This document shows, piece by piece, positions 6,765 through 64,000 of a DNA stretch of 64,000 nt; position 1 is the stretch's first letter; each line of letters starts with the position of its first letter. The notes under the pieces were generated by a model. It was not told the origin of the DNA. It saw only the letters and a list, made by a program, of their open reading frames with translations, and did not search any database. The DNA lies in assembly GCA_023053545.1 (NCBI GenBank), contig JAKZAN010000002.1:9668790-9732789 (forward strand), read 5' to 3'. This DNA comes from Lepidurus packardi (taxonomy: Eukaryota > Arthropoda > Branchiopoda > Notostraca > Triopsidae). The position numbers were made by a program, and so were the translations under genes.

Positions 6765-7000
6765 TGAGAGTTGGGAACAGGGAAAGGGGCGAGGCTCTCA
6801 ATTTTTCACGATTTTTGAAGGGGACCCCCTTGATACAGCATTATTCCTTATGGGGAAAAGCCCAGAAAATGCGTTTCCAGATTGAAAAAACACCACGCCC
6901 ACTTTTTGGTCCAATCCACCAATAGGATTCGTCCTTTCCGGAGGCCACACCCTCTTTTTTAGCGGATTTTTTGAAAACTCACCCAAAATTTTCCAAATGT
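6765..7000 (+). repeat. Dispersed repeat, copy 2
   Basis: This is the plus-strand partner of the copy at 5555-5805, starting near gttgggaacagggaaagggg and running to an A/T-rich end. The copies lie about 1 kb apart in opposite orientation and could pair as a large interrupted inverted repeat. The short reading frames inside it do not stay aligned between copies, so I treat it as non-coding. Confidence 0.7.
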
Positions 7001-8034
7001 TCGATTTTATTTTAAATACTATAAGTCGTACAACAAAAAGGACACTTTTCGAAACTAGATTCTACGGGAAACCTTTTGGGAACATAGTAAGCAAATAAGG
7101 AATTTGGGGGGGAAGGAAAAAATCTCATTTGCATAATTTTAGAATCCAATTTTGGGAGGAAAACTGAGTGCCAGAATAACGTTTAGGAGGGATAAACTTT
7201 ATAAGAAAAGCAAAAAGTCGGGAAAACAAAGGCTACAATTCTAGTCAATTCTCACAAATTATACAATGAAACACAACGTCGAACCCAAAAGCTGAAATGC
7301 TGAACATCGCGACCCTTCCAATGGTCAATCTTGCCTTAAAGTACAACAGACGCAGTTGAAAGGTTTGTAATAATTGAAACGTAACGCATATAACCACCAC
7401 ATTTGCAACAGAAGATCCATCGGTACGTGAAAGCAGCAAGGAATCTTATTTAAGATCGACTGTCTTCTCCTCTTTTTGCATTTCCAAACCAGAAAGCCAC
7501 GAACGTTAAACACCTACGGAAAATACATTAGGTCTGAAACTAGTACAAACGCATAACAAATTATGTTACCAAGAGATTAGTGCTTTTACGGACGAAAGTT
7601 CTTAAAGCTTTCAACACCATAATTCAATAACTTTAATCTTGATCGTGGTAAAGCCACCTTGGCCGTAGACACGAGGACAATTCCATCTGAAGGACGACAG
7701 GAATCTAACCTTCTCAGGAGCCAACGTCCTATCAAGTTGAAGATGATATCTCTGCTCATTGGTTAACCACGAAAAGATACACAATTTTAAAGCCGCATTA
7801 ATACTATGTTATAAGGACGATGAATAGCGACTTCAGAAGGACTGACCATTACATTACATTTATGATTACCAACCTATTCTATTTCTTTCTAAATCCTTTC
7901 ATGACTCTTCTTTACGGATATCTCCTAAAAAATAAATAAGAATTGTAATTGCGAACTGGAGCTGACGGAGATGACAAAAAGTAACTTTGGACTTGTCCAG
8001 CCTAAACGAACAAAATCAAAGCTTCAACTGGGCT

Positions 8035-8260
8035 ACTTTAGGTCAGTTAAGCTACGTTAAATGTAATTAAATTCTGATTACCTTAGGTTAGACAGGCTAA
8101 CTAGGATTAGGTTTATTTAGGTTATATTAGTTAGGAGAAGTTCGGCTAGTAAGACTAGGTAGTTAGTTATGTTTTTTTTTTACGTTTTATGTAATGTAAG
8201 TTAGCTGGGTTAACTAAGCTAAGTCTTGTTAAGTTAGTTTAGATTAACTTCAGGTTATCA
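8035..8260 (+). repeat. Degenerate TTAGG-like interspersed repeat
   Basis: The words ttagg, ttaggtt, taggtta and gttagtt recur through this stretch, densest at 8088-8150. TTAGG is the telomere repeat unit of many arthropods. The phase is not kept and units are broken, so this is degenerate interstitial sequence, not a telomere. Similar wording occurs inside the foldback element at 1810-1836. Confidence 0.45.
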
Positions 8261-14123: not shown

Positions 14124-17100
14124 GTTGTGTGGTTGCTATTTGCCGTAAACAAACACACAAAATTTCCCCATAAAGGTTTTCTGATACGTTGATAGGGCCT
14201 TTTTCTCCACCAATTGTTTTTTGATTGCGAAGCTTAAAACAGCTGAGCTAGATAGCGTGGATTTTCAATAGATTTGGCAAGTCGGCTTTTCCAAATCTGC
14301 ACATGCAAAAATCCGTTAGTCTAGCCAAAAACGCATGCTTTTTGTATTCTCCTTTTTGCCCGAAACGCTTCACCTCGGATCAGCTGCACACCTATGGAAA
14401 AAGAAAAGAAAAGAACTCGACATGTATTACCGAAAAGCAACAGCAAACCCATTCATATGCAAAACAAGAATCATAGCTTCTCATCTCTGCACTAAGGCTC
14501 TTTTTATTATTTCAAACTTCTGTAGAGGGAGGGGATGGTTGGTTAGCAAGAGTTTTTCCAACGCACAAGCCGGTTTTCTCTTCATTCAATGCACGTGGGA
14601 CCCCTGTTTTCCCCAATACCCGAACCGTAAGTTAACCAGCATCTTTGGCTCACTGCACATGCCAGCAACAAAATTGGGTCAACTACATCGTAGAACCCCA
14701 AGTCCCCTACCGTCTTTTGGCATTGCTAGGAAGTAATTCACGTGCAGCAACGTGCCTGCCTTTTCCGAAGATGGCAGGATGAGAGGTGTTGGTTTTAACG
14801 AGCCACGCATGCAAATTATACTCGTTTATCGTACCAAAGCCCAACCCACCGTCAGATATTTAATTTTGATACACCTGGGGGCTCTCTTCCTAGAAATCAT
14901 CCATCTTCCAGTGCTATTTCCAAACCGAATGCCATATTTTCTTTCTTTTTTTTCCTTGTGGTAAGGATTGTCAATTCCAATTACTAATCACATGGAAGAA
15001 ACATGGATCAATTATACCCAAATCCTTTTCTTACCAGCTCTTTTCTACCCGCTGCGTACAAAAGAAGAGGGACAGTTGAAAAGAACTGAAAACAGGTGCC
15101 CCTTTCTGTACCCAACCTGACTCCAAAAACTCGCGCCTGGAAAGTTTCACCGTGGGTCTTCATTACAGTCATGCTAATTCTTTCCCCCAAGCCCTACCGG
15201 CAGATGGCCTCAATACACGCATCAAAACCCCCTTCCCTACCCGATGCTTTAGCTACTTACAGGGCCTTCCTAAGAAAAAGAAGAAACAAACAAAAAAGGG
15301 CTTGTAAATCAATCTAGTGCTGAACGTAAACTACAATTTGCCGACGCCACCGCATTAGGGGTACCGTATCGCCTTACTGCGTTGCTATGTTTTATACAGG
15401 TTTCCAATTGCCGACACGTGGCCAAAAAAGATGCCTTACGTCCTCGACACACACCAGAGGCCAATGACTGGCCTCCTTTATATTCTTGGCTTCCCTACAA
15501 CAGAAATTCAAAGCCAAGCTTGCTTTTTTGGTACCTGTTGTAACAACTCCGTGCCATGCCGCCCCCTTTTGCCTCCTTCGCTCCCCGCTATAAAAAGGAT
15601 AAAAATAAAAAAAGGTAAAAATAGAAAAGGAATTTGGTATTTACACAGAGCGGTACGGGTTTTTTTCGCACTTGTTGCTCACACCAAAAAGGTAAAAATT
15701 GAAAGAAAAATAAGAAACGAATGCTATTGTCTGGGATTCTGTCTGCTCCTTTACTTCACGACGACGACTTCTTCCTCCTTTTTATTTTTAGAGATTTTAG
15801 TTTCTATACCACGGAAAGTTGGTCAACCACCCACCCACCTCAGTACTCTTGCTTCCCCAAAAACGGGTTTAATTCGACTCCACTTTATACAAATAACGCC
15901 GGTTTTTTGCGCAGTCATACTGCATGGGCTAAGCATAACCAAGTAACACAAGCTACCGGACTATCTTTTACTTTAATATATTATTTTCCTATTTATTTTC
16001 GTTCTGTTAAAGTTTTCCTCGAAGTACTTTTGTTCTCCTCCTGAATCTGCTGGTCTTTTTTAATGCGCAAAGGCGGATAATGGCGGACGCTTTCTTTACT
16101 TTCCTTGCGTTCGCCTCGTCTACATGTTAAAGAAAAACAGTTACTAGGACTTAATGGGAAAAGGAAAGTGAAAAATGTTACTGTTTCATGTTCAGTCTTC
16201 CCACAAGAGAAATTCTTGGTTTCCGAAGCCACACATCAATCAAGCATGCTTTTTACGTAATGGTATTGGTCAAATCATTGCTGGTCGGAGAGGTAGGGCT
16301 TACTCATATATCAGTCATGCAACAGGTTGCACAAGCTGGCTCCAATAACACGGCGACACGTATAATTGGGACAGGCTGGAACGTTTTGAGCTTTAGAAGT
16401 AAAAGAAAAAAGGGGAAAATTTTGATATTGTCCTTTTCTTTTGGTTTTTGGACAGTTTTTGTGCAGGAGTGAGCTATATCGTACAAAGGAAGGCAACTGT
16501 GATGGCACAGAAAGATACGGGAAACCTGTCGACGTTGCTTTTGGGTATATAGGATTTCGGCGGTGATGGAATTAATTACAGGTTGTCATGCCAGGACTCT
16601 GTCGTGTCACGTTCGAGGAAATTTTCCACTTGAAAATCGTCCCACACTTAAAATTTTACTAGTATGCCCTGGTAACTCGTCGTCATTGGACTATGTCGTG
16701 GACACTCCATTGCGGCGCAACTGTGTGTCGCGACTCTTGGAGATATGGCTAGCATACCCAACTTTCTCTTCAACGGTCATTTCACCAAACAGAACCATCA
16801 ATAACACGGGACAATACTGTTCTTTAGCCCCCCTTCGAAAAGATCTTTCCCAACAGTTTATGGGGCATCAGACATCCCATTCGCTTCGTTAAAACGTTTT
16901 CTTACCCATTTATAAACTTATCATTGAGGAAGGCAGAGGGTACGATGGAGTACGACAGGGGGTATAACAGTGTTTTCCGCTTAAATGTTGCAAGACTATG
17001 TTTTTTTTTTTAAAGTTTAGCTACAAAGCTATGGTGCATCAAACTGCGCCAAGCTACACAATGTACACTTTCCCATCGCATAAAGGTAGGAAGTTAAGCG

Positions 17101-41287: not shown

Positions 41288-44200
41288 CTAATAACAGGGT
41301 TGGATGGATGGGGTGGGGGTCAAGAGAGAAGGGTGTAAGGGGGGTAGAAAAAGTACTGAAATGATTGGGTGAGCTTCTCGTCCTTGGCTGGTTGCTGAAT
41401 TGAAAGTCTGTTTGGCCTCGTTAAGGAAAAGTTTCACCGCTGGGAATAGTTTTGGGTCCATGAGAAAGTTCTGAGGTTTAAAGTGCAGTTTGAGGGAACT
41501 GTGGGCTCTAATCAACTTCGCTCTGCACTTGTTTAACCAACGACAATGTATAAAAACGTGGTGAAGGTCTTGGATAACCATTTCCGGGCATGGGCAAAGC
41601 TTAGTGGGCGAACGGCCAATTCTATACAAATAGCTCAATGTTGGGAAGTGCGTGGATCGGACCTGTATAATCGTTGCAATGGTATTTCTTGGTAGTCTTG
41701 AGTTGATGATTCCATGAAGAGATGGAACAGCATTCAAATCTTTTAAAGGGCTATTAGTTGATTCCCATCCATTTTGCCACGTTTTAATAAGCGCTTTTTT
41801 AATTTCTAGTAGGGCTTCTTTTTGGGTTGCGGGTGGGCTTGACCAGATTGCCCTGGCCAGGCATCTTGTCCTTTCTTCACAGGATGCATACATCTTGTGT
41901 CTCTGGGTTTCTACCTGTATTGGCCATTTCTGCCAGTTCTTATGCGCATAGTGTCGTAGAAGTGTCCATTTTAACTTTAAGTTTAATGGTAGGACGCCTG
42001 TATCAACCTCTAGGGCTATGGTTGGGGTTGAAGGAAGTGCTCCTGAAATTAGCAGAAGGCCTCTTCGGTATATTTGGGTGATAGGCCGAAGCCTGGTTTC
42101 CGAGGCATTGCACCAAGCTGGGTATCCATAGGTCAACTTTGAAACGATAGTTGCATGGAAGAGAGTGCGTACTTGGGAGCATGTGATGGACTTCGAAATT
42201 TTGATCAACCGGTGGATCCTCTGAAGGGTGTTATTACATTGAGCTGCTAGTAGGGAAATATGGCTTTGCCATGTGAGCCTGTTATCATAGATTACGCCCA
42301 GGTATCTCACTGCCTCCTTTGGGTAGATAGTTGTCGTTCCCCATATTAGCGGGGCAACCTCTTCTGTTCTTTTTCTTGAGAAGTGTATCAACTCGGTCTT
42401 GTCCCTGGAGAATTCTAGCTCAAACTTCCTTCCCCATTTTTCTAGTGAGCATAGATTGTTCGCTAAAAGTCTTGTGTTCCATTCGCTGGACGAACCCGAA
42501 GTGTGGAGGAGCAAATCATCGGCGAAGGCACCGACGTGAATTCGTTTCCGGTTTATTACACTTAGCGCCCCGTTGATATATAACAAAAAGATGATAGGTG
42601 ATATTGGAGATCCTTGCGGTACACCTTTTTTTATGGCATATGTTTGACTGTTTTCCGTTCCGTGTACGACGAATGCTCTCCTGTCTTGGAGGAAGCTCTG
42701 TATCCACTTGACAATCTGTGAGGGCACCTTTAGTTTCTTCATTTCGGCAACCAGTTTTTGATGTACTACGTTGTCAAATGCTCCTTTAATATCAAGTAGG
42801 AGGGCTGTTTGAACTTTGCCTCTGTCAAAGCTGTTTAGTACGGAGTTACTGAGTTCCATGAGGGCATCTGTTGTACCTCTCCCTGGTCTAAAACCCCATT
42901 GCATATCCGACAGCTTGTTGTTGTTTTCAAGGAAAGTTTGCAGTCTGGAAGCTACTGCTTTTTCAAGAATTTTTCCAAGAATAGGTAAGAGGGCGATTGG
43001 CCGGAAACTTTTTATTGAGCTGTAGTCCTTCTTGCCGGGTTTCGGTAAGGGCAGTACTTTCGCTATCTTCCACAAAGAGGGATAGTGACCAAAGGTGAGA
43101 GAGGCGTTAAAGATTTTGACCACGGTTGCAGAAATGGTCGTCCAAATTTCCTGAAGCACGATCGCTTGGATACCATCCATACCAGCGGCTTTTTTTGAAT
43201 GTAAGTTGTTCAAGATATTGGAAATTTCTTCTATAGTGAAGTCTGAGGAGATTTCACATTGGGTAGATCTCGTGAAATGATGCTTACAACGGGGACCTTG
43301 GTATGTTTTTGTTGGGGCGTCCCACATTTCTCCGACAATAAGGTGTTCAGCGATGAAATTGAGCCTAGCGACTGGGTTATCAAATGGCGTACCATCCTCT
43401 TGTTTAAGTTGCTGAACAAGTGACTTGCTGTTCTCGTTACGTAATGTACGATTAAGATTCCAGATGACCTTATTCTCGGTGGTAGCCATCTTGTCTGCCC
43501 AGTACTTGTCCCGACGCTCTCTAGTCTTGGTCCTGTAGTGATTTCTTGACGCTTTCCATAGGGTCTCTCTTCTTGTGCCTCCATAAATTCGATAAGCGCG
43601 TAGTGCTTTCGCCGCTTGTTTACGGAGTTCCGCTAGTTCTAAGTTCCACCAGGGATTATTCCGGTTTTTACTGGTAAAGGTGGGTATGTTTTGGTTCATA
43701 GCATTTTGTATGATAGTTGTCAGTTTATAAGCAGCTGCATCGATGTCCTGTGTGTTGGAGAGCTTTGTAAAGGAGTTTTTAGAGTTTTTTAGTCCCAAAG
43801 CCGTGTCATGGCGTGCTTTCTCCCAGTTGGCCTTTTGGTAGTGCCAGCTTTTGTTCGATACTTTGTTGGTGTTGTGTATGAGGTTTAGAGAAATCACTAT
43901 GGCTTTGTGGTCGGATTCGTTGTAGTATTTTGCTTCATCAAGGACGTGCCAGTCTGTGATTGCAGTTAATTGAGGGGAACACCACGTGAGATCGATTGTC
44001 GATTTATGTCCACGTTCGTTGTGGAAAGTTGGGACATTCCATTGGTTTATCAAGTCCCAGTGCTGTTCTGTAGCGAAGTCATATAGTTGTGTTCCCGATG
44101 AGTCTGGTGTTTTATCCTCCCACTGCCAATGATGAGCATTGAAATCTCCTGTGATGATTACTGGGTCCTGTTGATTGTACTTTCCCCAGGCTTCTTGAAG

Positions 44201-44530
44201 AAGCGACGTCGTGTTAACAGTATGTCTTCTGTAAATTGCGAGTAGGGATATTGCTCGGCCTTGTTGATTTCCCAGTCTGATTTTTGCGTACAGTTCCTTT
44301 ATTTCAATGACATGGAAAGGGCTGTCTGGCTTACGAAGGAGCATTACTCCCTCATAAGCAAGAGATGTTGTAATGACGTCAAAACCTAGGATGTGTGATT
44401 GAGTATAGTGCTGTGGTGGTTCTAGAACAATAACCAGGGTTATATCCTCACTGTTGGCCTCTCTTGCCACTTCGTTAAGTTGGGATGTACTTTTCCGGAT
44501 ATTCTGTACAATCAGTCGCACTATTCCCAT
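41288..44530 (-). CDS. Retrotransposon ORF2: AP-like endonuclease and reverse transcriptase, 1080 aa
   Basis: The N-terminal part is an exonuclease-endonuclease-phosphatase domain, with GDFN at residues 128-131, IDLT at 179-182 and SDH at 206-208; this family nicks the target DNA. The reverse transcriptase spans about residues 446-740: D580 with GAFDNV, GVPQGSPISP at 636-645 and the catalytic FADD at 669-672. A C-terminal C-x-C...H...C cluster lies near 978-997, as in related elements. No RNase H motifs are seen. The ATG lies three bases after the ORF1 stop and in the same frame. The reading frame is uninterrupted. Confidence 0.95.
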   Translation of the reverse strand: MGIVRLIVQNIRKSTSQLNEVAREANSEDITLVIVLEPPQHYTQSHILGFDVITTSLAYEGVMLLRKPDSPFHVIEIKELYAKIRLGNQQGRAISLLAIYRRHTVNTTSLLQEAWGKYNQQDPVIITGDFNAHHWQWEDKTPDSSGTQLYDFATEQHWDLINQWNVPTFHNERGHKSTIDLTWCSPQLTAITDWHVLDEAKYYNESDHKAIVISLNLIHNTNKVSNKSWHYQKANWEKARHDTALGLKNSKNSFTKLSNTQDIDAAAYKLTTIIQNAMNQNIPTFTSKNRNNPWWNLELAELRKQAAKALRAYRIYGGTRRETLWKASRNHYRTKTRERRDKYWADKMATTENKVIWNLNRTLRNENSKSLVQQLKQEDGTPFDNPVARLNFIAEHLIVGEMWDAPTKTYQGPRCKHHFTRSTQCEISSDFTIEEISNILNNLHSKKAAGMDGIQAIVLQEIWTTISATVVKIFNASLTFGHYPSLWKIAKVLPLPKPGKKDYSSIKSFRPIALLPILGKILEKAVASRLQTFLENNNKLSDMQWGFRPGRGTTDALMELSNSVLNSFDRGKVQTALLLDIKGAFDNVVHQKLVAEMKKLKVPSQIVKWIQSFLQDRRAFVVHGTENSQTYAIKKGVPQGSPISPIIFLLYINGALSVINRKRIHVGAFADDLLLHTSGSSSEWNTRLLANNLCSLEKWGRKFELEFSRDKTELIHFSRKRTEEVAPLIWGTTTIYPKEAVRYLGVIYDNRLTWQSHISLLAAQCNNTLQRIHRLIKISKSITCSQVRTLFHATIVSKLTYGYPAWCNASETRLRPITQIYRRGLLLISGALPSTPTIALEVDTGVLPLNLKLKWTLLRHYAHKNWQKWPIQVETQRHKMYASCEERTRCLARAIWSSPPATQKEALLEIKKALIKTWQNGWESTNSPLKDLNAVPSLHGIINSRLPRNTIATIIQVRSTHFPTLSYLYRIGRSPTKLCPCPEMVIQDLHHVFIHCRWLNKCRAKLIRAHSSLKLHFKPQNFLMDPKLFPAVKLFLNEAKQTFNSATSQGREAHPIISVLFLPPLHPSLLTPTPSIQPCY

Positions 44531-44533
44531 AAG

Positions 44534-45904
44534 CTACTTGCTCTTTGTCGCGGACTTCTTGTCCTTTGCTTCTACTTCCTTCAGTCGGGTAGGACAGTTT
44601 GAGTCAAAAGCGTAGTGTTGGTCTTTGCAATTTGCACATTTCTTCATTGCCTCTGTGCATTTCCTTGTGTCGTGGTTTTTGGCACATTTTCCGCAGGTTG
44701 GAGTCTTCTCGCGGCAAGACGCTGACATGTGGCCATAGGCTTGACAATTATAGCACTGAAGGATCTGGGGGTGTTTGACGTTTTCCACTTGTACTATGCG
44801 GTTGAAAGCAAAGATGGCTCCCACTTCTATCAACCGTTTCTTCTCTTCTTCTGATTTACAAGTATACTTGATGGAACCGTATGCTTTTTTTACATCCGGG
44901 TTTAGCCATTTCGCTTGATCCGCTTGGAAGACGACTTCCAGGTTTGAGTTTTTTTCGGAGATGTGTTTGCATATTTCTGGTAGACTCTCGTCCTTTGGTA
45001 GCTGGTGAATAATCATCGTCAGGTTTGGTTGCCTCTTTACTACCTTTACCGGACCCAAATTTGGCAATGTCGCCGATTCAAAAATGTTTTCAGAAGTTGT
45101 TTTTTCCTCTATACTCTTGTAGGTGAGTGCGAGTCTGTTCGTTCTGGTCTTTCCTACTAGGACAGGTTTCGGTGCTTTTGGGTATGCTTTGGACAGGTCA
45201 TCTTCGATTGTCTTCAGAAGATCTTTCCTGGGAATGACCGCGTTTCTCTTAGTCTCGTCTTCTTGCTGAATGAATAACGTTAGACCATCGTCGTCTTGAG
45301 CGCTTGAATCGTGGCTGGCAGGGGTGACACTTGGGGTGCTTGTCACCTTGATTGATGGTTTGGTTCTCTTCCTTTGGACAACTTGTGTCCAAGTGCTTGT
45401 TTGAGCCGGAGACGAGGAGACTTGGTTTGTGGCGTTAATTTGCGTAGTTGAGAAGGAAGGTTTCATGTGTTCTTCCTGTAGATCCTTGCGGAGTCCAATA
45501 ACTTCCGCTTTTAATGCCATGACTTCCTGGATTAGATTCTCGTTGCTCTCTTTAAGTGATCGAAGTGTCGACAGGATGACATCCATGGTAGATACTTGGG
45601 TTGGATCTTCGATTGAAAAACACCTTCTGCGATACGTCTGATCATTTGGGGGGGAGGGTAGGGGACGTTTCTGACCCAGAATTGGGTTTGCAGTCGCTTT
45701 TTTGTCACGACATGGTTTGCAGTTCTTGGCTGCAGGTTTGTCTTTTAGAAACAGGTCACCACAGGTTTGGCATTTCACTTGGGGTTGTGATGTGACTGTT
45801 GGGTTGGGCGAGTCTATTTCAATGTTTTCAAGCACACGGGAAGGGCCTGGTTGAGAAAACCGGATCCCCCCTTTAACGGGCGAGTTTTCAGGTGTCCTTA
45901 ACAT
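44534..45904 (-). CDS. Retrotransposon ORF1: Gag-like protein with zinc knuckles, 456 aa
   Basis: The frame starts at the ATG at 45904; nine upstream in-frame codons begin only with TTG. Three C-terminal zinc knuckles are present: residues 384-397 (CX2CX4HX4C), 404-416 (CX2CX3HX4C) and 423-437 (CX2CX3HX6C), the arrangement typical of Jockey-type ORF1 proteins that coat element RNA. An extra C45, C48, C62, C65 set could form a zinc ribbon. Residues about 125-155 are predicted by eye to be a coiled coil, suggesting self-association. The frame ends in TAG and is followed in the same frame by CTT and the ORF2 ATG. Confidence 0.93.
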   Translation of the reverse strand: MLRTPENSPVKGGIRFSQPGPSRVLENIEIDSPNPTVTSQPQVKCQTCGDLFLKDKPAAKNCKPCRDKKATANPILGQKRPLPSPPNDQTYRRRCFSIEDPTQVSTMDVILSTLRSLKESNENLIQEVMALKAEVIGLRKDLQEEHMKPSFSTTQINATNQVSSSPAQTSTWTQVVQRKRTKPSIKVTSTPSVTPASHDSSAQDDDGLTLFIQQEDETKRNAVIPRKDLLKTIEDDLSKAYPKAPKPVLVGKTRTNRLALTYKSIEEKTTSENIFESATLPNLGPVKVVKRQPNLTMIIHQLPKDESLPEICKHISEKNSNLEVVFQADQAKWLNPDVKKAYGSIKYTCKSEEEKKRLIEVGAIFAFNRIVQVENVKHPQILQCYNCQAYGHMSASCREKTPTCGKCAKNHDTRKCTEAMKKCANCKDQHYAFDSNCPTRLKEVEAKDKKSATKSK

Positions 45905-45954
45905 ATTGTCACTGGGCAAAGCCCAAAACAATCACTTAAGAGGTCCTCGTTCAT
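45898..45954 (-). CDS. Short upstream frame in the retrotransposon leader (18 codons)
   Basis: An ATG at 45954 in the 5' UTR opens an 18-codon frame whose TAA overlaps the ORF1 start in the string ATGTTAA. This arrangement could couple termination of the short frame to ORF1 initiation. There is no evidence that the peptide itself has a function. Confidence 0.3.
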   Translation of the reverse strand: MNEDLLSDCFGLCPVTIC

Positions 45955-51500: not shown

Positions 51501-54500
51501 AAGCTTGAACGGCCCAAACTTCTAACACTGTTAGACCAGCAGCAAGGTAAAACGTAAGCATATATAAAGGCAAAACCCGAGTCCCCTCTCTTTCTCTCTT
51601 CCCTCTCCCAACTGGGAGCGAAAAGCATGTAACTTCTCCAAACCAACCTGTTGTAACCATCGCCTAACTTAATGATGTAACGGTATTTCACCTTCTTCAC
51701 CATAACCCTGGGTTGACGTGCGGCGGGTACCGGCCGTACGCCTGACCTGGTCATAAAGCAAAGCTCCCCCCCCCTCTCTGGGTTGTGATGGCGAGAAATA
51801 CCTGGCTAGACATCGGCCGTGAAAAAAATTCCATCGTAATCAACATTCTTGGAATCCTACGAACCTGTTCCTGGCCAAGAGAACCCTGTATTATTTTTTT
51901 TAGAAAAAGTAGAAAACGTGGTCTAACACCTAATGTTATTGCCGACCTCCAAATAACCCTGGCTCTGAATCCATAACTTATCTCCGAGTTCATTTTCTGG
52001 TCCTTTTCTCCCAGAAAACCGAGCTGTGCTCCAAATTGATGTGTTCTAATTATATCAAAAGAAGAAAAGGGAACTCAAAAAGACGTCTCTACAGAGTTAG
52101 AGGATATTAGTATGTTCACTTTTTTCTTGACTTTTGTTTGTGTTTAGAAACGTGCTCAGGAATTGGGTCTACGGAACTAGGACTCCGACTTAAAAAACAA
52201 AAAAGGACGAGATCAAGTTTGATTTCTAGGACTGCCCACCTGTCACCGTGTCTGCTCCTTAATGTCGCGATATGTTGTTTTAGATTCCAAACTCGTCCCG
52301 TCATTCCACTAAAAAAGTAATAGAAAAACAGATAACCCCAGGATCTATGCTCCCCTTAGCAGCCAACAACACACCAGAAGGAAGGTGGAGTACAGTACAG
52401 TACACTGGATTAGGAGCAAATAGGAAACGCTTTGTCGGTTGTCAACCTTCTTCCACACAACAATCCGTGCGTTAACACCATAATGCTGACACGAGACGGT
52501 CGGAACGTTTATATGCAAAGTTACATGACATCGTTTCCGCATAACATAACTTCCAGTCTGTCAGGCGTGTATTGCGTCAATGAACCGCTATCTATGGCAA
52601 CACTGTAACGCAGAAAACGTGTAAAGTGCTAGAAGGCACTGGATACGACGATACGACCATGAATTAGACTTAGACAGCCTTGACCTGACTTATGGTCATA
52701 AGAACGACCGTTTTCTCGCTACAGGAGGTACTCAGTGGGCTTTTAAAGGGATTGTAGGTTGGGCTTGGGATTGGAAGAACTTCCTTCGAAATCTCCAAAA
52801 GTAACCGAACGCAAGCAAAGAAGCCTTCAAGATTCCCGAAGTGCACTGTACACCTCAATGTCTTTGGCTTTGCCTACAGGTTGGAAGAAGAGTTCCCGAA
52901 ACTTGTCCGAAAAGCATCTGAGAATGGTCCGCCAGCGGTTTTCGTCGTTGACTTTCGACCTACAAAGTCTGACGTATAAGCAACGTCTCGTCTGCCTTGC
53001 TTGTTTCCTAACTCTTTAACATTTGCATATCTGACCCGTTAGATAACCAACAAAGCAGATTTTGGCATTACTCCATTACCATGTAGCATGAAACCTAGTA
53101 CTAAAACGCCGCATCGCATTCCTGCGCTAAAGCGAATACAAGAATCTCATTAAACCATTCCAGTCAACAGCCCAGCCACGTCTCAAGTCCACATTCTTTC
53201 AGTCTAACGACCGTTATTACACCTTCCGTGAACCTCCACAGTACCATCGGCGAAGTTTTAACGTTAGCGAACGTTTTCTGGGTCGAGCGAAAGTTTATAT
53301 GACAGCAAGAAGGTATCATTTTTTTGGGAGGTCGGCGTTCATTTCTTTGTTGTCACGTTGCGTCCCTTTACAAATGAGGTAATCGAACGTTTTTAAAGTC
53401 CTTTTACCTAAACCGGTACATGTATGACTTTTCTTTGTTGACCTACTCATTGCTATTGGTATGCTTTCCCGACAGTACCCAAGACCCGCAACGGGGCGAA
53501 CTTTTTTCCCAATGAAAATGCGCATTATGCTCAGTAGTCAAAAAGCAAAGCCTCTCCGTTCCACCGGATGGGTTAAGTTCTCGCCCAAAAACTGTCCAAA
53601 AAGGAAAGATCAACACGCCCAATGCAGTTTCTCGGCATCTTCTCGTTGGGAGTAAAAAGATACAAATGAAAAAGGTGCTTTCTCTCTTTCCCACTGAGCC
53701 AAGGCACTCTTTCCGGGTTTTACTTTTCAGAACCAGGAAGAAAACATGATCCCAAAAACAAAAAAGTTATGAGCAAGATTCACGTGCGTTATGCTTTTCT
53801 CACATCTTGCGCTGTTGCACGCGCCCCACCCAATGCTTTCACCATTTCTTCTCGTGGCCATTCCCCGTAACGCTTTCACAACGTGATTATTCGATACGGA
53901 AAAGGGTTTACACGAAAGATGCCCGAGTTGATGATGGTTCCTAAGGAGATGACCTCCACAAAAAAAAGTCGACAATCCTGAAGAACCACTTTCAGATTTG
54001 CTGTCGGACTCCGTATCCGCCAACCAAGTGTAACGGTGAAGGCCCGCTAGTGTAACCCTGTGCGGATAAGACCGTACAACTATTACGTTACTCAGACTCG
54101 AACAAAACCAGTTATTAAGAAATAGCTTACCTGAAGACGTCTGGTTTTCCGACTTTTTTGTACTTTTTGTCTTTTTGATCGCCCGCAAAGGCATTGATAC
54201 TGTATTTCACTGGTACACCGGTTACGTCCCAAAACTCCACTGAAAAACACTTGCGTGATTGTTGAAGTTCTCTTTCCCAGACGTAATTCGTAGGCAAGCT
54301 AAAGGGCTAGACAAAAAATGCAAATTTCGGAGAAATTTCGTTCCAACATATGCCAGAAGTGACCTGGAATCCTCATTTGCCTATACACTTACCCAAAATG
54401 CACCATGTACCGTCCCAACAGCTAAAAGATGCTCCTTGGTCTTGCTTACAACTTACGATTGAAGCAAAAACCACATCCGGCAATAGTAGAACCCAAACCC

Positions 54501-55210
54501 GAAAGAAAGAAAATACCTCTGCCCAAACCATCGATCTCTCTTTCACACTGCAATAAAGCTATCCATCGTTTCAATATGCATTTTCTCAGGGGTTGGCTGA
54601 GATGTAGGCCAAAAAGATGTCAGAATTGGACCAAAAACCCTGGGATGCTTGAGGTAAAAGTCGGGGAACTTTGACATGATACAGCACTCGCTAAGGTACC
54701 AAACTGTATCGGCTATCGTCCCTTTTTGCATAATTAACTGTTAATATTTCCTTAATATCTCATGAGGTGGTATACTACGTGAAAGAGCGGAAGCGGAACA
54801 TGGTTTATTTCGTCACCGAAGCGCGGAAATAAGGGATGGAAGCTTGACAGGAAAATTTTTAACTTCTCCAAGAAAAAAGTAGGAAGGGACGTGACGTTTG
54901 TGACACAATATAGGAAATGGATAGAACACCTTCCCTTGTTAAAGCTAACCAGCCCCCTTCAAGAAAAGCGCACTCCTTCGAGTTAGCACCCGGCTGAGTA
55001 TGGTTTTCTCCTCTCGATACGGCCTACTAACGAGCCAAAAACAGTTTCTACGTTATTTGCCCGTAACTTTGGCACCAAATCCGAAAAGGAATTGGTCTTG
55101 GTATAGTGCATCGGAGGTCCCACCCCAACCACCGAAAGCTATGACGGGTGTGGGTCGTGGCCCACATGACGTATTCTTGAGTCAGTGTGTCTTCCCCAGG
55201 TAACATGGGG
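48544..55210. other. Intergenic stretch of about 6.7 kb
   Basis: No gene is supported. Small repeats are visible: a cluster of gcacaattgca-like words at 50793-50857, and two copies of aatggaagg(c)..gtattgcctcg at 51071-51121. A 68-codon hydrophobic-start frame at 48629-48835 lacks an ATG. Confidence 0.45.
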
Positions 55211-55250
55211 TATATATAGAGGTAGGGTCGTCCTTCCTAAAGTGTCAGTC
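55211..55250 (+). promoter_or_regulatory. TATA box plus initiator upstream of the first membrane exon
   Basis: TATATATA (55211-55218) is followed by TCAGTC (55245-55250), which matches the arthropod initiator consensus TCAGTY. With the initiator A at 55247, the TATA box sits about 30 nt upstream, the usual spacing. The predicted leader to the ATG at 55684 is about 437 nt and may contain an intron. Confidence 0.6.
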
Positions 55251-55683
55251 GCATCGCCAAGTGTTGAGCCAAGTGATCCCTTGAAAAGCTTCACAAGAGT
55301 TTCAGCTTACGCAATCCAATCCTTGTGTGACTTAAATACCTAATTAGTCGACGTCTCTTCCTAAAAACTTGAAATACCCAAGGTAACATTACATTCCAAC
55401 CTCCTTCAAATTCCAGTGTTTTTCTCTCAGCAAACGAAACAATTTACTAGTGCATGCCGTAGATCTTTCTTCAAAGCAAAGCCCCCAAATAACTAAAGCC
55501 GTTTAAAGAATTTAATTCAACTTGAAAAAAGACTTTCATTACAATTTGACATGGGACTAACGACGACTGTGAAAAACACTCATTGCTTCATTGTTTTTCA
55601 TTCACTCCTTAACTCACACCTTCCCAATTTCCATGGTTTTTGCCCACACAGCACTTTTTGGCACTTTTACGAGCACCCCAACG

Positions 55684-56288
55684 ATGCACCTGAGTAAGTT
55701 CACGTTAAGTGCGGGCCTTTTGTGCCTCGTGCTGGTCCTAGCGGCGGCCACCGAAGAAGCTCAACCTAAAGAAGACGCTGGAGTGGACAACAGCCAACGC
55801 AACGTGGGAATTAGCCTGGGCAAGTGGAATTTGGGAAATTTGGGGGGACTCGGCAATTTGCTCGGACTCGGCGTCTCATCTCCATCATCTGTGCCAAGCG
55901 GTATTAGCGTGGGTACCGGCATCAGTACCGACAATGCAGCCAGCGCCGGTGGTACCAGTATCGCTATCGGTATTCCATCCGGAACAGATGCACTCGCTGG
56001 AGGTCTTGCGGCTGGAGGTCTTACGGCTGGCGCTCTTGGGGCTGGCGCTCTTGGGGCTGGCGCTCTTTCAACTGGGGCTCTAGGCTTTGGCGCGGGTGCC
56101 CTGGCTGTATTGAAGGCTTACTTCAAAGCCTTCACCTTTGGTCGACTTGTCACCATGGGTATGGGCGCCGCTTTACTGGCCACCGGTGTCGGCCTCATCA
56201 TCGCCTTCGGCGTCCTCGCTTCAGAACTCAGACGTCGATCTGGCTACGATTCCGACCCCGTCGACGAAGACTACAATGCCCAATTCCG
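55684..56288 (+). CDS. Membrane protein exon 1 (variable exon B), phase-2 donor
   Basis: Reading from the ATG at 55684, residues 1-22 form a signal peptide (MHLSKFTLSAGLLCLVLVLA). A Gly/Ser/Leu-rich segment follows, with a GALGA-type repeat at about 105-139 built from three 15-bp units at 56026-56070. A membrane segment lies at about 156-179, followed by a basic RRR (183-185) and an acidic tail. The frame appears to stop at 56290-56292, but that TAA belongs to CG|GTAACG, a good splice donor, so residue 202 (Arg) is probably completed by a downstream exon. No cysteine-domain exon or AATAAA occurs before the next exon. It most likely splices to 59359. The alternative is a single-exon 202-residue protein. 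An in-frame ATG at 55633 is less likely, because it would bury the signal peptide. Confidence 0.75.
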
Positions 56289-56539
56289 GTAACGTATACA
56301 AAAACTCCCCTGCCCTTCAACAAAATCCCTTCCTCTCAAGAAAAGAGTTAAACTCTCCAGAAAGAAGTTCAAAGAAAGTGATCAGATTAAACAATCTCTT
56401 CGGTGAATTGACGTAGCACAATTTTGGCAAAGAAATCACACACACACCACAGAACCTAGGGGTAAAAAAATCGGGCACGCACACCAAACGATTCGCGCAC
56501 TTTGAATTTTTGTTAAGCTCCTGGATTCTTTAGTAGATC

Positions 56540-56949
56540 ATGGCAGTACGAAGCAATTTGCTAGTATTCTTCATCTGGGCCAGTGTAGCAGCCCTCGCCT
56601 TTTACCCCGCTACAAGCTGGGCGCTATCCGATGGGGCGAACCTCGATAACCAGGACAGGGGTCGTATTTTTCTGAACACTAACTCCCTGAATAGTACCCT
56701 CATTCCCATCAACGCGACCGCCATTGGATCCATCATTGGAGTAGTGGCCATCATTGCCCTGATAGTTGTTGTCGGCTTCATTTTCTTGGGCGCCCTCGGA
56801 CTGGGAACCTCCGCTTTCGGAGGTTACGGTGCCAACAGTCTCTATGGCGGTTCGAGCTACGGATCCGGTGGCTACCAACAAGCCAGCTATGGCTACTCAC
56901 CCTACAGTAAGCTCGCGAACCCTGGTGCCTACAACGCGTACCAGAGCCG
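56540..56949 (+). CDS. Membrane protein exon 1 (variable exon C), phase-2 donor
   Basis: The ATG at 56540 opens a signal peptide (residues 1-28). A short extracellular stretch carries two N-glycosylation sequons (NST at 51, NAT at 58), followed by a strong membrane segment (about 62-86) and a Gly/Tyr/Ser-rich tail. The frame appears to end at residue 137, but the TAA lies within CG|GTAAGC, a near-consensus donor in phase 2. Its juxtamembrane text (RIFLNTNSLNST) resembles that of the next two variable exons. The 880 nt after it contain no cysteine-domain exon and no AATAAA. It probably shares the constant exons at 59359-59842; otherwise it is an intronless 137-residue protein. Function unknown. 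Confidence 0.75.
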
Positions 56950-57314
56950 GTAAGCCTACGTGCACCCGTCAACGAAATATTCGCAGCAGCACTTCCGCAC
57001 CTTGCTCGGGCACTTGACCTCTCTCTCTATTGTGTATATACGGAGCATTGATCTCTAGGGGCTCCACAGCCTCTTCTCCAAGACTCGGCCAAGACTTTTG
57101 CCGCACTTTTGCTGACACTACCCAAGACGCTTCTGAGCTTAAAGGGACGACAGGTCTATCACATTACAGACCTAGCTGAAACATTCGGGGTTTTGCCCTA
57201 CAACAATAATGACTTGAAACAACGACTAGCTCCTAGACTTTTTCGAGAGCGATAACGCAGTCAGTCAATAGAAGGAACCTTCTACGCATTTTTTCACTGT
57301 TGCGCTGTTAAGCT

Positions 57315-57346
57315 TATTTAATCTTGTTTATCCTTCGGGTTCAGCT
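57315..57346 (+). promoter_or_regulatory. Weak candidate promoter for variable exon D
   Basis: TATTTAA (57315-57321) precedes TCAGCT (57341-57346) with 28 nt between the box start and the initiator A. Both are imperfect and the exon ATG is about 490 nt away, so this is only a candidate. Confidence 0.25.
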
Positions 57347-57833
57347 AACGCGGTTTTTAGTTACGATGTTGAAATTAGTAGTTACGACAGACGGAAGTAA
57401 CAGTTAGGACGGTCGGGGTAGCAGTTAACGACAGCTAAGTTGGTGACGTTTACGACAGTCAAACAATACTACCATCCACAGCAGTTTCCACCATCATGAA
57501 AAAGACCTTAATCTCAAGTTGTTTGCAGGCTTGTGAGCCTGTACTTTCAGGTTGAATAACTTCGTTTGGTACGTAAAAAAGTTAAACTCCACCCTCGGAT
57601 GCTATTAGCTCCTATCAATCTTCTCTACTATCAAGATTCGTATTCCATACAAATAACTGGAGAAACGACTTTCTGAACAAACAACTGGAATAACTTACCG
57701 GACTGAGAATTTAAAATTTCACTAAATAATTTTAGCTTCGAATTTATAAAATTTTAAAGAACAATTTGAACTAGAAATCCGATCTTGAACAAATACGTTT
57801 GAATAGAAAAGCGGTGTTTTAAAGAATAAGTTA

Positions 57834-58462
57834 ATGAAAGCGAAAAAAATAACTCAACTAACCTTCCCATTTTCCTATACTAATAACCATACTATTAACC
57901 AGACGATGCAGGTCGGGTTTCTTACGGGTCTGATTACAGCCATGACCTACAGTCTTTCCGCAGCACCAACCATAGAAGCATGGAACGAAACCTGGAGCGA
58001 AAACTTGTGGCTACCAGCTTGGCCTCCGAGTTCGGATCCTCCTTTAATCTCGCGTCTTCCCGTATTGCCTTACCCTCGACCCTCACCCCTTTTCGGAGAA
58101 GACAAGGAAGGTCTAGCTGCTCAAAAGATTGCATCTCCTTTGGTCTTTCCAGGCCCTAGTGCCGATAATATGGGCCAAATCCCCCAATCGCTCTATTACC
58201 CGCCAAAATTAGGGCTGAACCAGCAAAAGGCAATCCAGAAACTCGATGGTCCTTCGGAACGCTACTTCATATTCAGCAAGACTAATTCCAGCCTCCTATT
58301 TGATCATCCTTTAAACCTAAGCTATTTGCAAAGCGACAACGTAGTCCGCGCTAGTATCGTTTTGATTGGTATTATCATTCTACTCTTTCTATCTAACCAA
58401 TCCACAACTACTCCTATCCAAATTGCGGTCGCCTCAGCTTCAGGTCGTAACTCTGAATCAAG
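57834..58462 (+). CDS. Membrane protein exon 1 (variable exon D), phase-2 donor
   Basis: The frame is open from an ATG at 57834. The ATG at 57906 (residue 25) is the better start, because it places a signal peptide (MQVGFLTGLITAMTYSLSA) at the N-terminus. A Pro-rich extracellular region follows (about 60-125), then a juxtamembrane stretch (RYFIFSKTNSSLL), sequons at 151 and 161, and a membrane segment at about 170-187. The apparent stop is the TAA of AG|GTAACA, a phase-2 donor at 58463. No cysteine exon and no AATAAA lies between it and the next exon. It probably splices to 59359, giving Arg at the junction as in the other variable exons. Function unknown. Confidence 0.7.
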
Positions 58463-58784
58463 GTAACAAAAGTCAACTTAGGTTTAACTGTCAACGACTG
58501 CAATTCCTTGCGAAATTACCCAAAAAAATGCACCAAAATCTTTTCAATCGTCTTGCGAAAATTTTTCACCTTTTAAGACCAAACCCAGTTAATTAACTGA
58601 CAGGTAGAACGAGTTCCTGACAAGGAAGACAATAGTTCCTCGAATTTCTATAGAAGATCACGAAATACGGATTTGCGGCGCAGTTAAAAAAGCTTTGGTA
58701 AAAAGTAATTGAAGCATAAATTCTCACTTCCATCGACAATGCACAACCCCGAAGCCGTTAACCTTCTACTTCCAGCTTAATCCC

Positions 58785-58822
58785 TTAAATACCGCCATCG
58801 CGTGCCCATTAGCAAGTCAGTT
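58785..58822 (+). promoter_or_regulatory. TATA-like box plus initiator for variable exon E
   Basis: TTAAATA (58785-58791) lies about 33 nt before the A of TCAGTT (58817-58822), an arthropod-type initiator. The predicted leader to the ATG at 58893 is only about 74 nt, so this promoter probably drives the exon directly after it, independently of the one at 55211. Confidence 0.55.
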
Positions 58823-58892
58823 CTCAATTAGCGCTTTGATCAGCATCCGAATTTAAATTAACACAAAAAACATTACATTAAAATCCGCAAAA

Positions 58893-59842
58893 ATGCAAGT
58901 ATTGAGCGCAATTCCAGTTTTCATCCTAACAACTTTAGTGGTAGTCTTGCCGATAGTAAGAGCCAACGGGGATTACGAAGATTATCACGACTTAGCATCC
59001 TCCAAAGTGGACCCTCGCTTGTTTGTCATCGTGCCATCCAGCAATGCGCTTAACGCTAATTCAACCGCCGGCGTTTTGTCAGTTTTAGGCACAGTAGGCC
59101 TATTCACGGCTCTAGTGTTTGCTTTCTGGTTCTTTGTGACCACCAGAGTACCCTTAAATCGCTACGGGTACGGCGGGTATTATTACCAACAACAACAGCC
59201 CAGCTACGGTGTCAACTCTCCACATTCGCATAGTACCAGTTACCAACGCAGGTCTTCAGAACTAATTCCACCCATTCGTACACTCACTTAATTACTTAAT
59301 TCATAAGAAAATCATAAAAAAATATTCTAAATGTTCCCCTTTCAAATGTTAAATACAGATCCACCAGTGACAGCATTGACTGGGCTAACCTCAACATCTT
59401 GGACTACATTTCCATGATGGAAGAGATGTGGCGCAAGTTCGACGTTAAGGATGTGGAATGCCAAAAGCGAGTACTCTGCGAATTGCACCAGAACCAAGCA
59501 TCTTTGGGCCAACCCGCCGAGAAAGTCGTCAACGCTTTTGGGTAAACAAAAACCAATTTTCAAAATGTTCGATTTTCAAACATTTCAACGTTTTTCGATT
59601 GAATGGAGTTAAGTTCAAGGAGTTTTCAAGGGAACTAATACCCATTTCGACGTTATAGATACCTCCGTTATTTGTCGTTCATGAAATTGCCTGCTGATTT
59701 GAACTCACTGTTTGATGAATACCAAGAGGCTGCCGACAAAGGACGCACCTTTAACAAAGACTGCGGTGAGATTTACAACGCCTGCAACTTCTCGTTTAAG
59801 GACACCTACCTCAAGTACGTGGGCAACAAGAACTCCCTCTAA
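58893..59842 (+). CDS. Membrane protein with C-terminal four-cysteine domain, three exons (variable exon E plus constant exons)
   Basis: Exons 58893-59251, 59359-59541 and 59659-59842 give 241 residues ending in TAA. Residues 1-24 form a signal peptide, 61-83 a membrane segment (with RLFVIVPSSNALNANST before it), and 90-118 a Tyr/Gln/Ser-rich tail. The last two exons encode residues 120-241: helical text with C154, C160 (CQKRVLCEL), C216 and C223 (CGEIYNAC). The C-x5-C..C-x6-C spacing and the EYQEAADKGRTF stretch resemble a widespread arthropod family of small secreted or membrane proteins of the DM4/12 type; that assignment is tentative. The first donor (CAG|GTCTTC) is weak; reading past it gives a stop at 59289. 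GG|GTACGG near 59171 is an alternative phase-2 donor. The last two exons are probably shared by the upstream variable exons. Confidence 0.75.
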
Positions 59843-60230
59843 AGAAGCAAAAAAATCCCTCACTACAGTTAAGAACCGAAAAAAAAGTAAAGAAAACACT
59901 TCGGACGATGACTTTTTTGCATAACGATACACCCAAAGAAGGCGTTAAGTTGTATAAAGCAGAGAATGTTGACTGAGTCTCAATGTTATACCAGTCCCTG
60001 TTGTAGTGTGCTTGTCTTGTTGGAAAATTGTGTAGTTTTTACCCCTTTTTTAAGTTCTTTTCGCAACCATTATTTTCCTATCCTCCACTCAATCATTCCA
60101 TGTAAGTAAGACAATCCCCAATTTTAATTTAAACCTTTAGCGGGAGTCCTAAACGCCCTGGTGGCGATTTATGTGACTTTTTTCTTGGTTTAAACTTGTA
60201 CTTAATTTATTCTGAACCAGTGCACCTCAC
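59843..60230 (+). other. 3' UTR of the constant exons
   Basis: No further exon is apparent between the TAA at 59842 and the poly(A) signal. The sequence is A/T-rich. It would be common to all transcripts that use the shared terminal exons. Confidence 0.5.
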
Positions 60231-60236
60231 AATAAA
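60231..60236 (+). terminator. Poly(A) signal of the membrane-protein cluster
   Basis: Canonical AATAAA about 390 nt beyond the stop codon at 59842. It is the first canonical plus-strand signal after any of the four variable exons, consistent with one shared 3' end. Confidence 0.6.
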
Positions 60237-60255
60237 CATATTTAAATTTAAAAAT

Positions 60256-63200
60256 TGTCTTTAATAGCCATAATTTCTTCCAAATTAATCTTACAAGAAA
60301 GGGGTGTAACCTGAAAATAATTACTAATAATTTAGTGATTTAAAGTAATAAATCAATAAATATTCTAACAAAAATTATGAACAAATTTACCCCAAATTAC
60401 TAAATGTTGTGTTTTTTCCCTTAAAATTATGAAAAATAAAACGAACAAACGGTACGTGCAGACTAAAAAGAACAAGGGTATTCAACTATGAGACTACGCA
60501 TAGCAGACGAAAAGAAGGCAAGGTATAGGTAGGTCGAGGTGAACGACCAAAGGTCTAACCACGTTTTGAATAACATATATTGCGTCTTGGAAGTCTCCCA
60601 AAATGAAAGAAGGTTTGGACGTCAGAGAGTTTAACTCATTTGAGAACCTTCCCAACCGGAAAGGAATAAGTATACGAAAGAACAGAGGTATAAAAATACC
60701 GGTTTATTACCGAAAATGCTCCAACATAACAAGACACGCAACACCAGCATCACGGTTACCCGTGACCTAAAAGTATAGGCCTATATATGTCCCTCAAACC
60801 CGAAGCTTCCCAAACTTGATTCCTGATTGATACGAGAACCTGTAATTTCAGTTACGGATGCGGTTCTATAAAAGGCTCGACTCAATTTGGAAAAGATGCC
60901 CGTAGTGCAGATCATTAACAAGATTAATATACGAGTGATGTAATACGTCACAAGACCCACTTTTCGATGGACTTTCGGTTACCTTAAATATGTCAGTGCC
61001 ATCTTTCGACCAAAAATTATCAATTACTTGCAGTACACGTGTCGTTTAATTCTTCACAAAAAAGGGTTGGGGAGTACATCTTTGCACAATTACTTTTCTA
61101 TTCAATTATAATTATGCTAATATTATGTCTTAGACAAATTCTTAAAATAATCGCTAACTAAAACAATTGTGTGTTATGCCTAAACTACAGACAATTTCTG
61201 GAACTATTTTATACCTTTATGTCCATAAAATATTTACAAAATCAGAATGAATCCTTAGAATTGCTGAAGTTTACAAAATTACAAATAAAATAGGTCGTTA
61301 CAGTTAGGAAATTGCAACACAAAATACATATCAAATCCTAGAGAATTAACTTTAAGAAAAACGAGTAGTTTTGAAGTAGCGTGCACTGTTACTGTTGCAG
61401 TGCTCTTAAGAGCTATCATTCTCTTATCAGCGCTTTAGATATTTGGTCAAGGTTGGCCATGCTCCTTCATTTGGCACCTCGGGCTAGGAATTAGCAAAAT
61501 CCTTTGCAAGGTTAAAGAAAAATGTGCAGGACTCGCCGTTTTCAGAACTTGCTCTTTTATCGATTAGCTAGAGGCCAGATCTAGTCGAACCGGATTCTGG
61601 GAATTGATTGCAGGTGACCAAGAAACAGACGCTCAAGAAAAAGCACGTGAAATTACACTTGTACGTTAGATCACAAAGATAGGAAGTGTACTAGATAAAA
61701 TATACGCCGAATGTTGCGAATTTTGCTAATAAAATATCCTGGTATGGACGCCAACAAACCCGTTAATCCAATTGTATGTTGTTTCCTGGAAGTATTTAGG
61801 TATATTTCCCTCATTATATCCTAATACGGCGTAGAAGCAGCTTACAGCCAAGGTTGTTCTGCAATCGCATTTTAATCTTAAGATTTTGTCTAAAACCACT
61901 CTCTGCAAAACATTCAACACAACTTTCTAAAATGATACAATAAATGGTAAATACAATAAAAAATAGTTTTTAGACATTTTTACTTTTTACTGTCGTTTCC
62001 TTTTATCTATTGAATCACAAAACTGCCGGTTCTTTACGACTTTCAATATAGTTCAAAGATAAAATTCTTTTATTCAAGAAATTGAAGTTTCAGTCGTTAA
62101 ATTCTGTTTATATACGGAGTGTTTGTTTTAAAAAATAATTGGAATTTATTGAAAAAACAAACTTAATATGTTATTTTAATTCTATAATTTTGACGAATTC
62201 TAAACAACACATAGCAGGCTGAGGTCAAGGGATCATCGATCTTCGGATTTTTGCCAAACCAAGGTTTCATTCAACGAACTGTTAAAAAAATGAAACAAAA
62301 AAAAATCTTACAATGAAAACCTAAAAAGGTATACATTAAAATACTTTTATTTGTCCAATCGATCCTAGTCACTGAAAACAAGCTCACTCTATTGTCCAAA
62401 GGACCAAACCGTTCCCGCAAGCACAGACTCAATGAAAAGACTTCTTCCCTCAAATGAGGTCAAATTTAAGCGCCAAGCTTCAACGGTCGACCAGCAATCT
62501 TCATATAGGGAAAGACGGATCAAATACTATCAGCCAAGAGCAAATGCTCATGTTATGTAAAGATTTAAAAAAGGGTCATATACCTGCTTAAGCTTATTGT
62601 GTATCCCAACCATAAAACTGGCCATTACCCAAACAGTCCCATCTTGTCTAAACCAAAACAGAACCATCTTGTCTTCGGTTTTAAAAACTACACGCATTAC
62701 GATTAATGAATCACAACTGCATTTACAACTTACGACCTTATCAGTTTTATACCAAATATGGTAGTGCTTGTTTAATACCAAAACATCAAAAACTGTCTAT
62801 TATTCACCTCAAGCATCCAAATGTACGTAAACGCTCACATTCTTGTTAAACTTAGTAATTTTCAATAAAAAATAATCGAAATTTTACCATTTAAAACACA
62901 GTAATACGACTTACATGTTAGAAGTAGATAGGTTAATAAAATTTCTAATGCTCATAAAACATTCGAAGGTATAACCAGAAAAGGGAGCTGAAGTATGCTT
63001 TACTACAAACATTGGTTCACATTAAAAGTTACATATTCTAAACGTCGCTATTAGAAAAATTGCCCATACATTAGCGTCAAACTAAGTAAACATTTTTAAG
63101 CTCAACGTCTATTATAACGAACTTTTGTGCATTTCTTATAACATTGATGCCCGTCTTCTTCGTGATTTGACAGTCGGGGTCCTGGGGTCATGTTAGTGGA

Positions 63201-64000
63201 ACCTATTTGGAACGTATATTCCAATACAGCTCTATAGGGAACAACGAACGTTCTCTGTGACTGGAAATCGTGTCCCGCCTTGGGGATATCTCTACACGTA
63301 TCCCTGCCTAGTTCATTTCCCAGTTCTTCTACCTTTCTTCCCCGCTAAAACTTTAAACTTCGGTTCTTTTTTGACTTAATTATCTCCTAATTAGTCAACC
63401 TAACGATGCATATCTTGGCGGTCTTTTAAGAGACTTCTACAGGAAGGGCAATGCCTCTATATCTTACTTTTCGGTCCTTGTTACGGAAGAGGAAATTCAA
63501 TTCACAGCTCCTTAGCGCCCGTTAATGTGACGTTGCCGTCGTTTGTCTATTCTTGCCTAAAGTTTAACCGGCGTTCTATTCCAGTTTTAGGCCGCTCTAC
63601 CGTGGAACATTACCGAGAATTTCGAGTTTCTTATTACGGGAATTGTGAAAAATGCAAATCACGAAGTCAAGGTCCCTTAAGCCATGTTATAAGAGGCTAA
63701 AAATCCTCCTCCTTTTATCTTTCCTTGCAGCTCCGCCTTTTAGATCGTTCAAAACGCTTCCAAACTCTTGTAACTCCTGCTATCTGTTTTAAAAACTCGT
63801 TTTCACCTATTCTGGATCTGAGCTCCTTCTTCCCTCGAATCCTACTCGGGGCTTTGGCAGTGTAGCACACTAAACACATACACGGCGCGAGTCCCAATTT
63901 GGCGAAGGGAACGAACGCAGAGGCCCCAGCGTCCAGCATGAGCAGTTACGTTCCATCCATGCTGCTGCTGGAACACAAAACACAACACCTAACAGTGGCC
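60256..64000. other. Gene-poor 3' end of the window
   Basis: The stretch is AT-rich with no supported gene. A frame opening at the ATG at 63938 stays open for 21 codons to the window edge and could be the start of a gene continuing beyond it, but nothing in it is recognisable. Confidence 0.4.

Follow-up and report, generated by a model that had tools for sequence, protein, structure and literature searches.

Can a single gene set several different surface proteins on one and the same C-terminal domain by exchanging its upstream exons? The question is raised by a 64,000-nucleotide stretch of the Lepidurus packardi genome (assembly GCA_023053545.1, contig JAKZAN010000002.1, positions 9,668,790 to 9,732,789 of the forward strand). 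Within this stretch, hereafter the window, four consecutive exons, A to D, which could each encode the head of a membrane-anchored protein, precede one exon pair that encodes a DM4/12 domain. The window lies on contig C2 of the 108.6-Mb genome. A preliminary reading of the letters alone (the sequence-only reading) had proposed a cluster of alternative first exons with one cysteine-domain tail in common. The analysis presented here points, with fair confidence, to one DM4/12-family gene in which four alternative upstream coding exons would each be spliced to one shared DM4/12 exon pair.

Locus layout and splice donors

The exons of the predicted gene and its closing polyadenylation (poly(A)) signal are as follows (a slash marks the exon-intron boundary).

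55684-56288, plus strand: variable exon A, coding part; signal, Gly/Ala-rich segment, membrane segment and tail; donor CCG/GTAACG, phase 2; candidate acceptor (3' splice site) at 55651/55652
56540-56949, plus strand: variable exon B, coding part; signal, sequons, membrane segment and Gly/Tyr tail; donor CCG/GTAAGC, phase 2; candidate acceptor at 56536/56537
57906-58462, plus strand: variable exon C, coding part; weak signal, long sequon-bearing segment and membrane segment; donor AAG/GTAACA, phase 2; candidate acceptor at 57902/57903, preceded by a TACTAAT element
58893-59251, plus strand: variable exon D; signal, sequon, membrane segment and Tyr/Gln tail; weak donor CAG/GTCTTC, phase 2
59359-59541, plus strand: shared exon 1; first part of the DM4/12 domain, phase 2-2
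59659-59842, plus strand: shared exon 2; second part of the DM4/12 domain and the stop TAA
60231-60236, plus strand: AATAAA, the earliest canonical poly(A) signal 3' of exon A

All four variable exons are open and end in phase 2 (at 56288, 56949, 58462 and 59251), and each of them, when joined to 59359-59541 and 59659-59842, yields a continuous protein free of stops. These ends had been named correctly by the sequence-only reading, as had the Arg codon formed at every junction (CGA for A and B, AGA for C and D). In every variable exon, the phase of the donor matches that of the constant acceptor; the donor of D is weak. The locus thus presents several tandem variable exons and one constant exon set, the arrangement by which a variable/constant gene layout is recognized. 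The statement that only one acceptor leads to the domain was slightly inaccurate: because 59359-59541 is itself phase 2-2, direct joining of any of the four exons to the acceptor at 59659 also keeps the frame. Splicing of A to B at 56537, as read from the sequence, shifts the frame into a stop, so that A mRNAs encoding the domain would need to skip B.

The stop codon that follows the open frame in A, B and C is, as had been pointed out, the TAA of the donor. However, an in-frame TAA is an automatic consequence of phase 2 combined with a GTAA donor, so that the stop itself says little, and the informative part is the GG that precedes it. All three exons end in xGG TAA (3/3), compared to 33 of 888 control open reading frames (ORFs), or 33 of the 394 controls that end in TAA; the controls were ORFs of at least 60 codons, among them that of D but not those of A, B, C or the first shared exon. 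If the three ends are treated as independent, the comparison of 3/3 with 33/394 corresponds to a probability of about 6e-4 given TAA, and because some of the controls may be real exons, it is conservative. The rarity of xGG TAA among the controls makes the ends of A to C look like splice donors. At another DM4/12 gene of this genome (locus L026), the first domain exon closes with the same TTCCG/GTAACG. Donors and acceptors were scored with matrices of generic, metazoan-like frequencies that had not been trained on this genome. On this scale, the donor scores are 1.52 for A, 5.52 for B and 2.48 for C (percentiles 95.0, 99.7 and 96.6 among the GT dinucleotides of the plus strand of the window), -0.59 for the domain exon's own donor, and -3.58 for D (percentile 65.7). 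Given that the scores of A to C are above that of D, the weak link is D rather than the three exons with donor-derived stops.

The shared domain

DM4/12 is widespread in arthropods and is a little-studied family. The joined tail belongs to it (PF07841), with 35.4 bits against a gathering cut-off of 22 (E 1.9e-8; positions 6-86 of 86). Four cysteines, at positions 23, 29, 85 and 92 of the domain query, are invariant in four aligned members from this genome; in PMC12825958, four conserved cysteines are given as a trait of the domain, which is termed 'function-unknown' there. Among solved structures, no convincing relative of the tail was found: the 14 sequences returned at E up to 1 were all HCN channels, the best of them at 0.17.

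Each shared exon has one copy at the locus in the genome searches, and the family search, which returned 13 places genome-wide, likewise gave one copy here. We also considered a row of complete genes whose own DM4/12 exons had decayed, and dropped this reading, as no remnant was found between the heads. In 18 comparisons of the A-B, B-C and C-D gaps with six DM4/12 exon queries, no remnant was detected (lowest 7/100 shuffles), nor was one found in 59843-64000 (lowest 46/100). The positive control of this search gave 0/100 for five of the six queries and 32/100 for the sixth. In the short stretch from D to the first shared exon, two of the six queries reached 6 and 1 of 100, which we read as chance.

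The variable exons

Hydropathy places a strong membrane segment in each of the four heads. A, B and D also begin with a hydrophobic stretch; the start of C is weak, with no 19-residue peak and a value of 1.66 over 12 residues. The claim that every exon combines a signal peptide with a membrane segment thus stands for the membrane segments and, as to the signal, is weaker for C. A crude signal-plus-membrane filter was passed by 8 of 244 ORFs of at least 90 codons, taken from both strands of the window and of 11 further 10-kb loci, and A to D are four of these eight. Exon A contains an additional Gly/Ala-rich hydrophobic stretch. In the same exon, window positions 55996-56085 (plus strand) hold some six tandem units of a 15-nt repeat, most of them encoding Ala-Gly-x-Leu-x.

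Sequons lie N-terminal of the membrane segment in all heads except A, and the translations of A and D show basic residues after it; together, these features suggest an N-terminus outside and a C-terminus inside the cell. For a domain with four cysteines, a cytosolic location would be unusual.

A Pfam scan with an E limit of 10, covering the four exons and the tail, returned no cadherin family among its matches. The matches of B to DUF1361, of C to DUF2177 and of the tail to a phage family were weak, below cut-off, and judged to be due to chance. Genome searches with A, B and C recovered self-matches only; with D, two weak places (E 0.18 and 0.43) were found besides the self-match.

Paralogues

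The closest paralogue is at C2:9003138 (plus strand; E 8.6e-5, and 9.5e-5 in the reciprocal search). The surrounding locus L020 (C2:8995001-9005000), 0.73 Mb from the locus under study, also holds a minus-strand DM4/12 gene at about C2:8998.9-9000.4 kb, a weak match of the shared-exon search (E 0.15), head-to-head with the second DM4/12 gene at C2:9002.8-9003.8 kb. The minus-strand gene has two tandem membrane exons, both readable as phase 1-1, followed by one DM4/12 exon, and the two membrane exons are alike (their score was reached by 1 of 2000 block shuffles). Once spliced, the domains of both genes pass PF07841 (cut-off 22), with 35.0 bits for the plus-strand gene and 24.1 bits for the minus-strand gene, which supports the splice models. 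Exon D is about as similar to the paralogue membrane exons as exon B is. A paralogue with two tandem membrane exons supports the reading of A to D as swappable heads.

For the other DM4/12 loci that were fetched, visual inspection of ORF lists showed no membrane-exon duplication; these lists had been filtered for length and hydrophobicity and could lack small exons. At locus L028 (C3:8703000-8712999, about 6957-8670), two DM4/12-like genes seemingly lie in tandem, unlike the shared-domain layout; the family match there is below cut-off, and the tandem reading comes from ORFs. A further weak match, C3:7759633 (E 0.17; loci L005 and L022), looks spurious from its ORFs.

Other features of the window

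A non-long-terminal-repeat retrotransposon-like ORF pair occupies 41288-45931 on the minus strand. It consists of a 465-residue ORF with a CCHC zinc knuckle and a 1081-residue ORF that, as judged by eye, resembles an endonuclease with a reverse transcriptase. A 794-residue ORF with C2H2 zinc fingers at its C-terminus lies at 11751-14135 (minus strand), and an ankyrin-repeat exon (Ank_2) at 4435-4860 (plus strand). TTAGG arrays occur in many places, including the very end of contig C3, and fit an arthropod genome.

Alternative explanations

The way in which a head might be chosen bears on whether A to D are first exons at all. The candidate elements are these.

55213-55250, plus strand: candidate core promoter upstream of A; TATATA and a TCAGTC initiator (Inr) with A+1 at 55247, a consensus match only
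58785-58822, plus strand: candidate core promoter upstream of D; TTAAATA and a TCAGTT initiator with A+1 at 58819
55247-55382, plus strand: candidate non-coding leader exon, ending AAG/GTAACA (donor at the 96.6 percentile of plus-strand GTs in the window)

The pair of TATA and TCAKTY before A, which has two overlapping TATA starts, is the sole strong one in the window on either strand. The pair before D comes from a relaxed TATA set with window totals of 6 on the plus and 5 on the minus strand, overlapping pairs being counted apart. No TATA+Inr pair precedes B or C in the window scan, so that own promoters for these exons are not supported, which counts against the version of our reading in which all four are first exons. 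Four promoters and a common leader spliced to alternative second exons appear about equally possible, given that plausible acceptors lie before every ATG and candidate TATA+Inr pairs only before those of A and D. A leader at about 55247-55382, with D possibly served by a promoter of its own, would be a variant of the preferred explanation, fully compatible with it, and we hold it to be a serious possibility, if somewhat short of an even one. Besides the leader donor and the want of a TATA+Inr pair at B and C, it draws on the best 3' splice-site-like AG upstream of each ATG: 55652 for A, 56537 for B, 57903 for C (after TACTAAT) and 58776 for D, at percentiles 95.9, 94.7, 84.7 and 98.8 of the AGs of the window. 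However, each stretch holds several AGs, so that one acceptor at the 95 percentile in some 120 nt is hardly exceptional, and the acceptor matrix is a generic one; moreover, D has a TATA-like and Inr candidate of its own 3' of its acceptor, and at 57261, before C, there is a TCAGTC that lacks a TATA.

Several further observations weigh against one gene with exchangeable heads, by whichever route they are chosen, and two of its rivals build on them. Clear exon duplicates were expected at the locus and were not found in the head-to-head comparisons. For exon A, no similarity was detected to any other head or to three membrane exons of paralogues (470, 989 and 847 of 1000 block shuffles reach its score with B, C and D, respectively). 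The similarity of B, C and D is marginal, with 31 (B-C), 99 (B-D) and 123 (C-D) per 1000 among the heads and 31 to 240 of 1000 over 12 comparisons. An earlier homology test on the segment before and in the membrane span gave nothing firm (lowest 45/500 shuffles). A to D are accordingly at most possible duplicates of one another. The intron between head and domain is in phase 2 here and in phase 1 in both close paralogues, and the donors of A and C have C at +5. The donor of D, GTCTTC, is the lowest of the six donors scored at the locus, even though D is nearest to the shared exons. With respect to poly(A) signals, AATAAA occurs within 54500-60400 only at 54552, 60231, 60347 and 60355, which upholds the sequence-only reading in that none follows B, C or D before 60231. 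Nevertheless, the one ATTAAA that it placed near 56382, after A, is at 56386, and it missed a second ATTAAA after C (58877) and the weaker variants TATAAA at 57745 (after B) and CATAAA at 58715 (after C) and 59313 (after D).

Taken at face value, these signals would suit stand-alone genes: A, B and C might be old duplicates of a 5' end without DM4/12 exons, their frames stopping at the TAA of a former donor, with only D or none of the exons joined to the domain. A former donor containing TAA would give exactly such stops, and ATTAAA after A and C and TATAAA after B could end the transcripts. We nonetheless regard this as unlikely: in heads so diverged, an unused donor should have lost its GG, which is kept in 3/3 cases against 33/394 controls, the donors of A to C outscore that of D, and no AATAAA lies 3' of A, B or C before 60231. 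It is conversely conceivable, and in our view quite improbable, that D is outside the gene, GTCTTC being no donor and the DM4/12 exons being common to A to C only. The score of -3.58 would fit, as would the continuation of the D frame to a stop at 59289-59291 with CATAAA at 59313; against this, CAG/GT is intact and its phase is the one needed, the intron would be a short one of 107 nt, and D and B resemble the paralogue membrane exons to about the same degree.

One gene with four exchangeable heads thus remains the explanation that we favour. Under this model, each head exon would supply a signal peptide and a juxtamembrane tail, with an ectodomain and a membrane segment of its own between them. 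One head at a time would be spliced in phase 2 to the shared DM4/12 pair. Which head is used might depend on the choice of promoter, on splicing from a shared leader, or on both. The products would be type I membrane proteins with differing outer parts and membrane segments and with the C-terminal DM4/12 domain in common. The earlier proposal that one locus makes several surface proteins on a shared domain thus survives as the best reading, with which the paralogue agrees; its first-exon, own-promoter part finds TATA+Inr pairs at A and D only. Whether the DM4/12 family of this genome uses a protocadherin-like device at two loci, with exchangeable ectodomain-plus-membrane heads (four here, two membrane cassettes at the paralogue) and a fixed C-terminal domain, seems to us evenly balanced.

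Comparison with known systems

The locus is probably a new case of a known gene layout in a family of unassigned function; no prior description of such a layout in DM4/12 was found in the searches made of open-licence literature. A constant domain with a changing front would hint at which part is the common effector and which is the address.

The clustered protocadherins of vertebrates join variable exons encoding head, membrane segment and juxtamembrane part to constant C-terminal exons. Here too, the variable exons hold an ectodomain, a membrane segment and a juxtamembrane tail ahead of constant C-terminal exons. However, no cadherin domain was found, there are four variable exons as opposed to tens, and the shared part is DM4/12. 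Furthermore, promoter candidates precede A and D only, whereas clustered protocadherins rely on promoter choice, according to PMC4835542. The same source describes the 5' cassettes of chelicerate sDscam, which are arranged in tandem and comprise one or two immunoglobulin domains encoded by two or four exons. Alternative promoters together with alternative splicing link these cassettes to a constant exon. These cassettes provide an arthropod precedent for tandem 5' units in which promoter choice and splicing act together. They differ from the present case in that one exon here holds the whole head and the membrane segment; the membrane part of sDscam appears not to vary.

The minus-strand paralogue in L020 is similar in that two membrane exons, both readable as phase 1-1, stand ahead of one DM4/12 module. 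Its signal peptide, however, is seemingly encoded in a shared upstream exon, so that the swapped unit is an internal cassette, and the phase is 1 instead of 2. In UGT1A, the membrane segment sits in the common part, whereas here it is in the variable exon. The likeness to UGT1A lies in variable first exons followed by common downstream exons, each variable exon of UGT1A having its own promoter before it, as stated in PMC3325998. Both parallels had been drawn by the sequence-only reading; on our comparison, the predicted gene layout resembles that of the clustered protocadherins more than that of UGT1A. If so, the locus would add to the layout of protocadherins, UGT1A and sDscam a compact case with four exons, small enough for complete testing.

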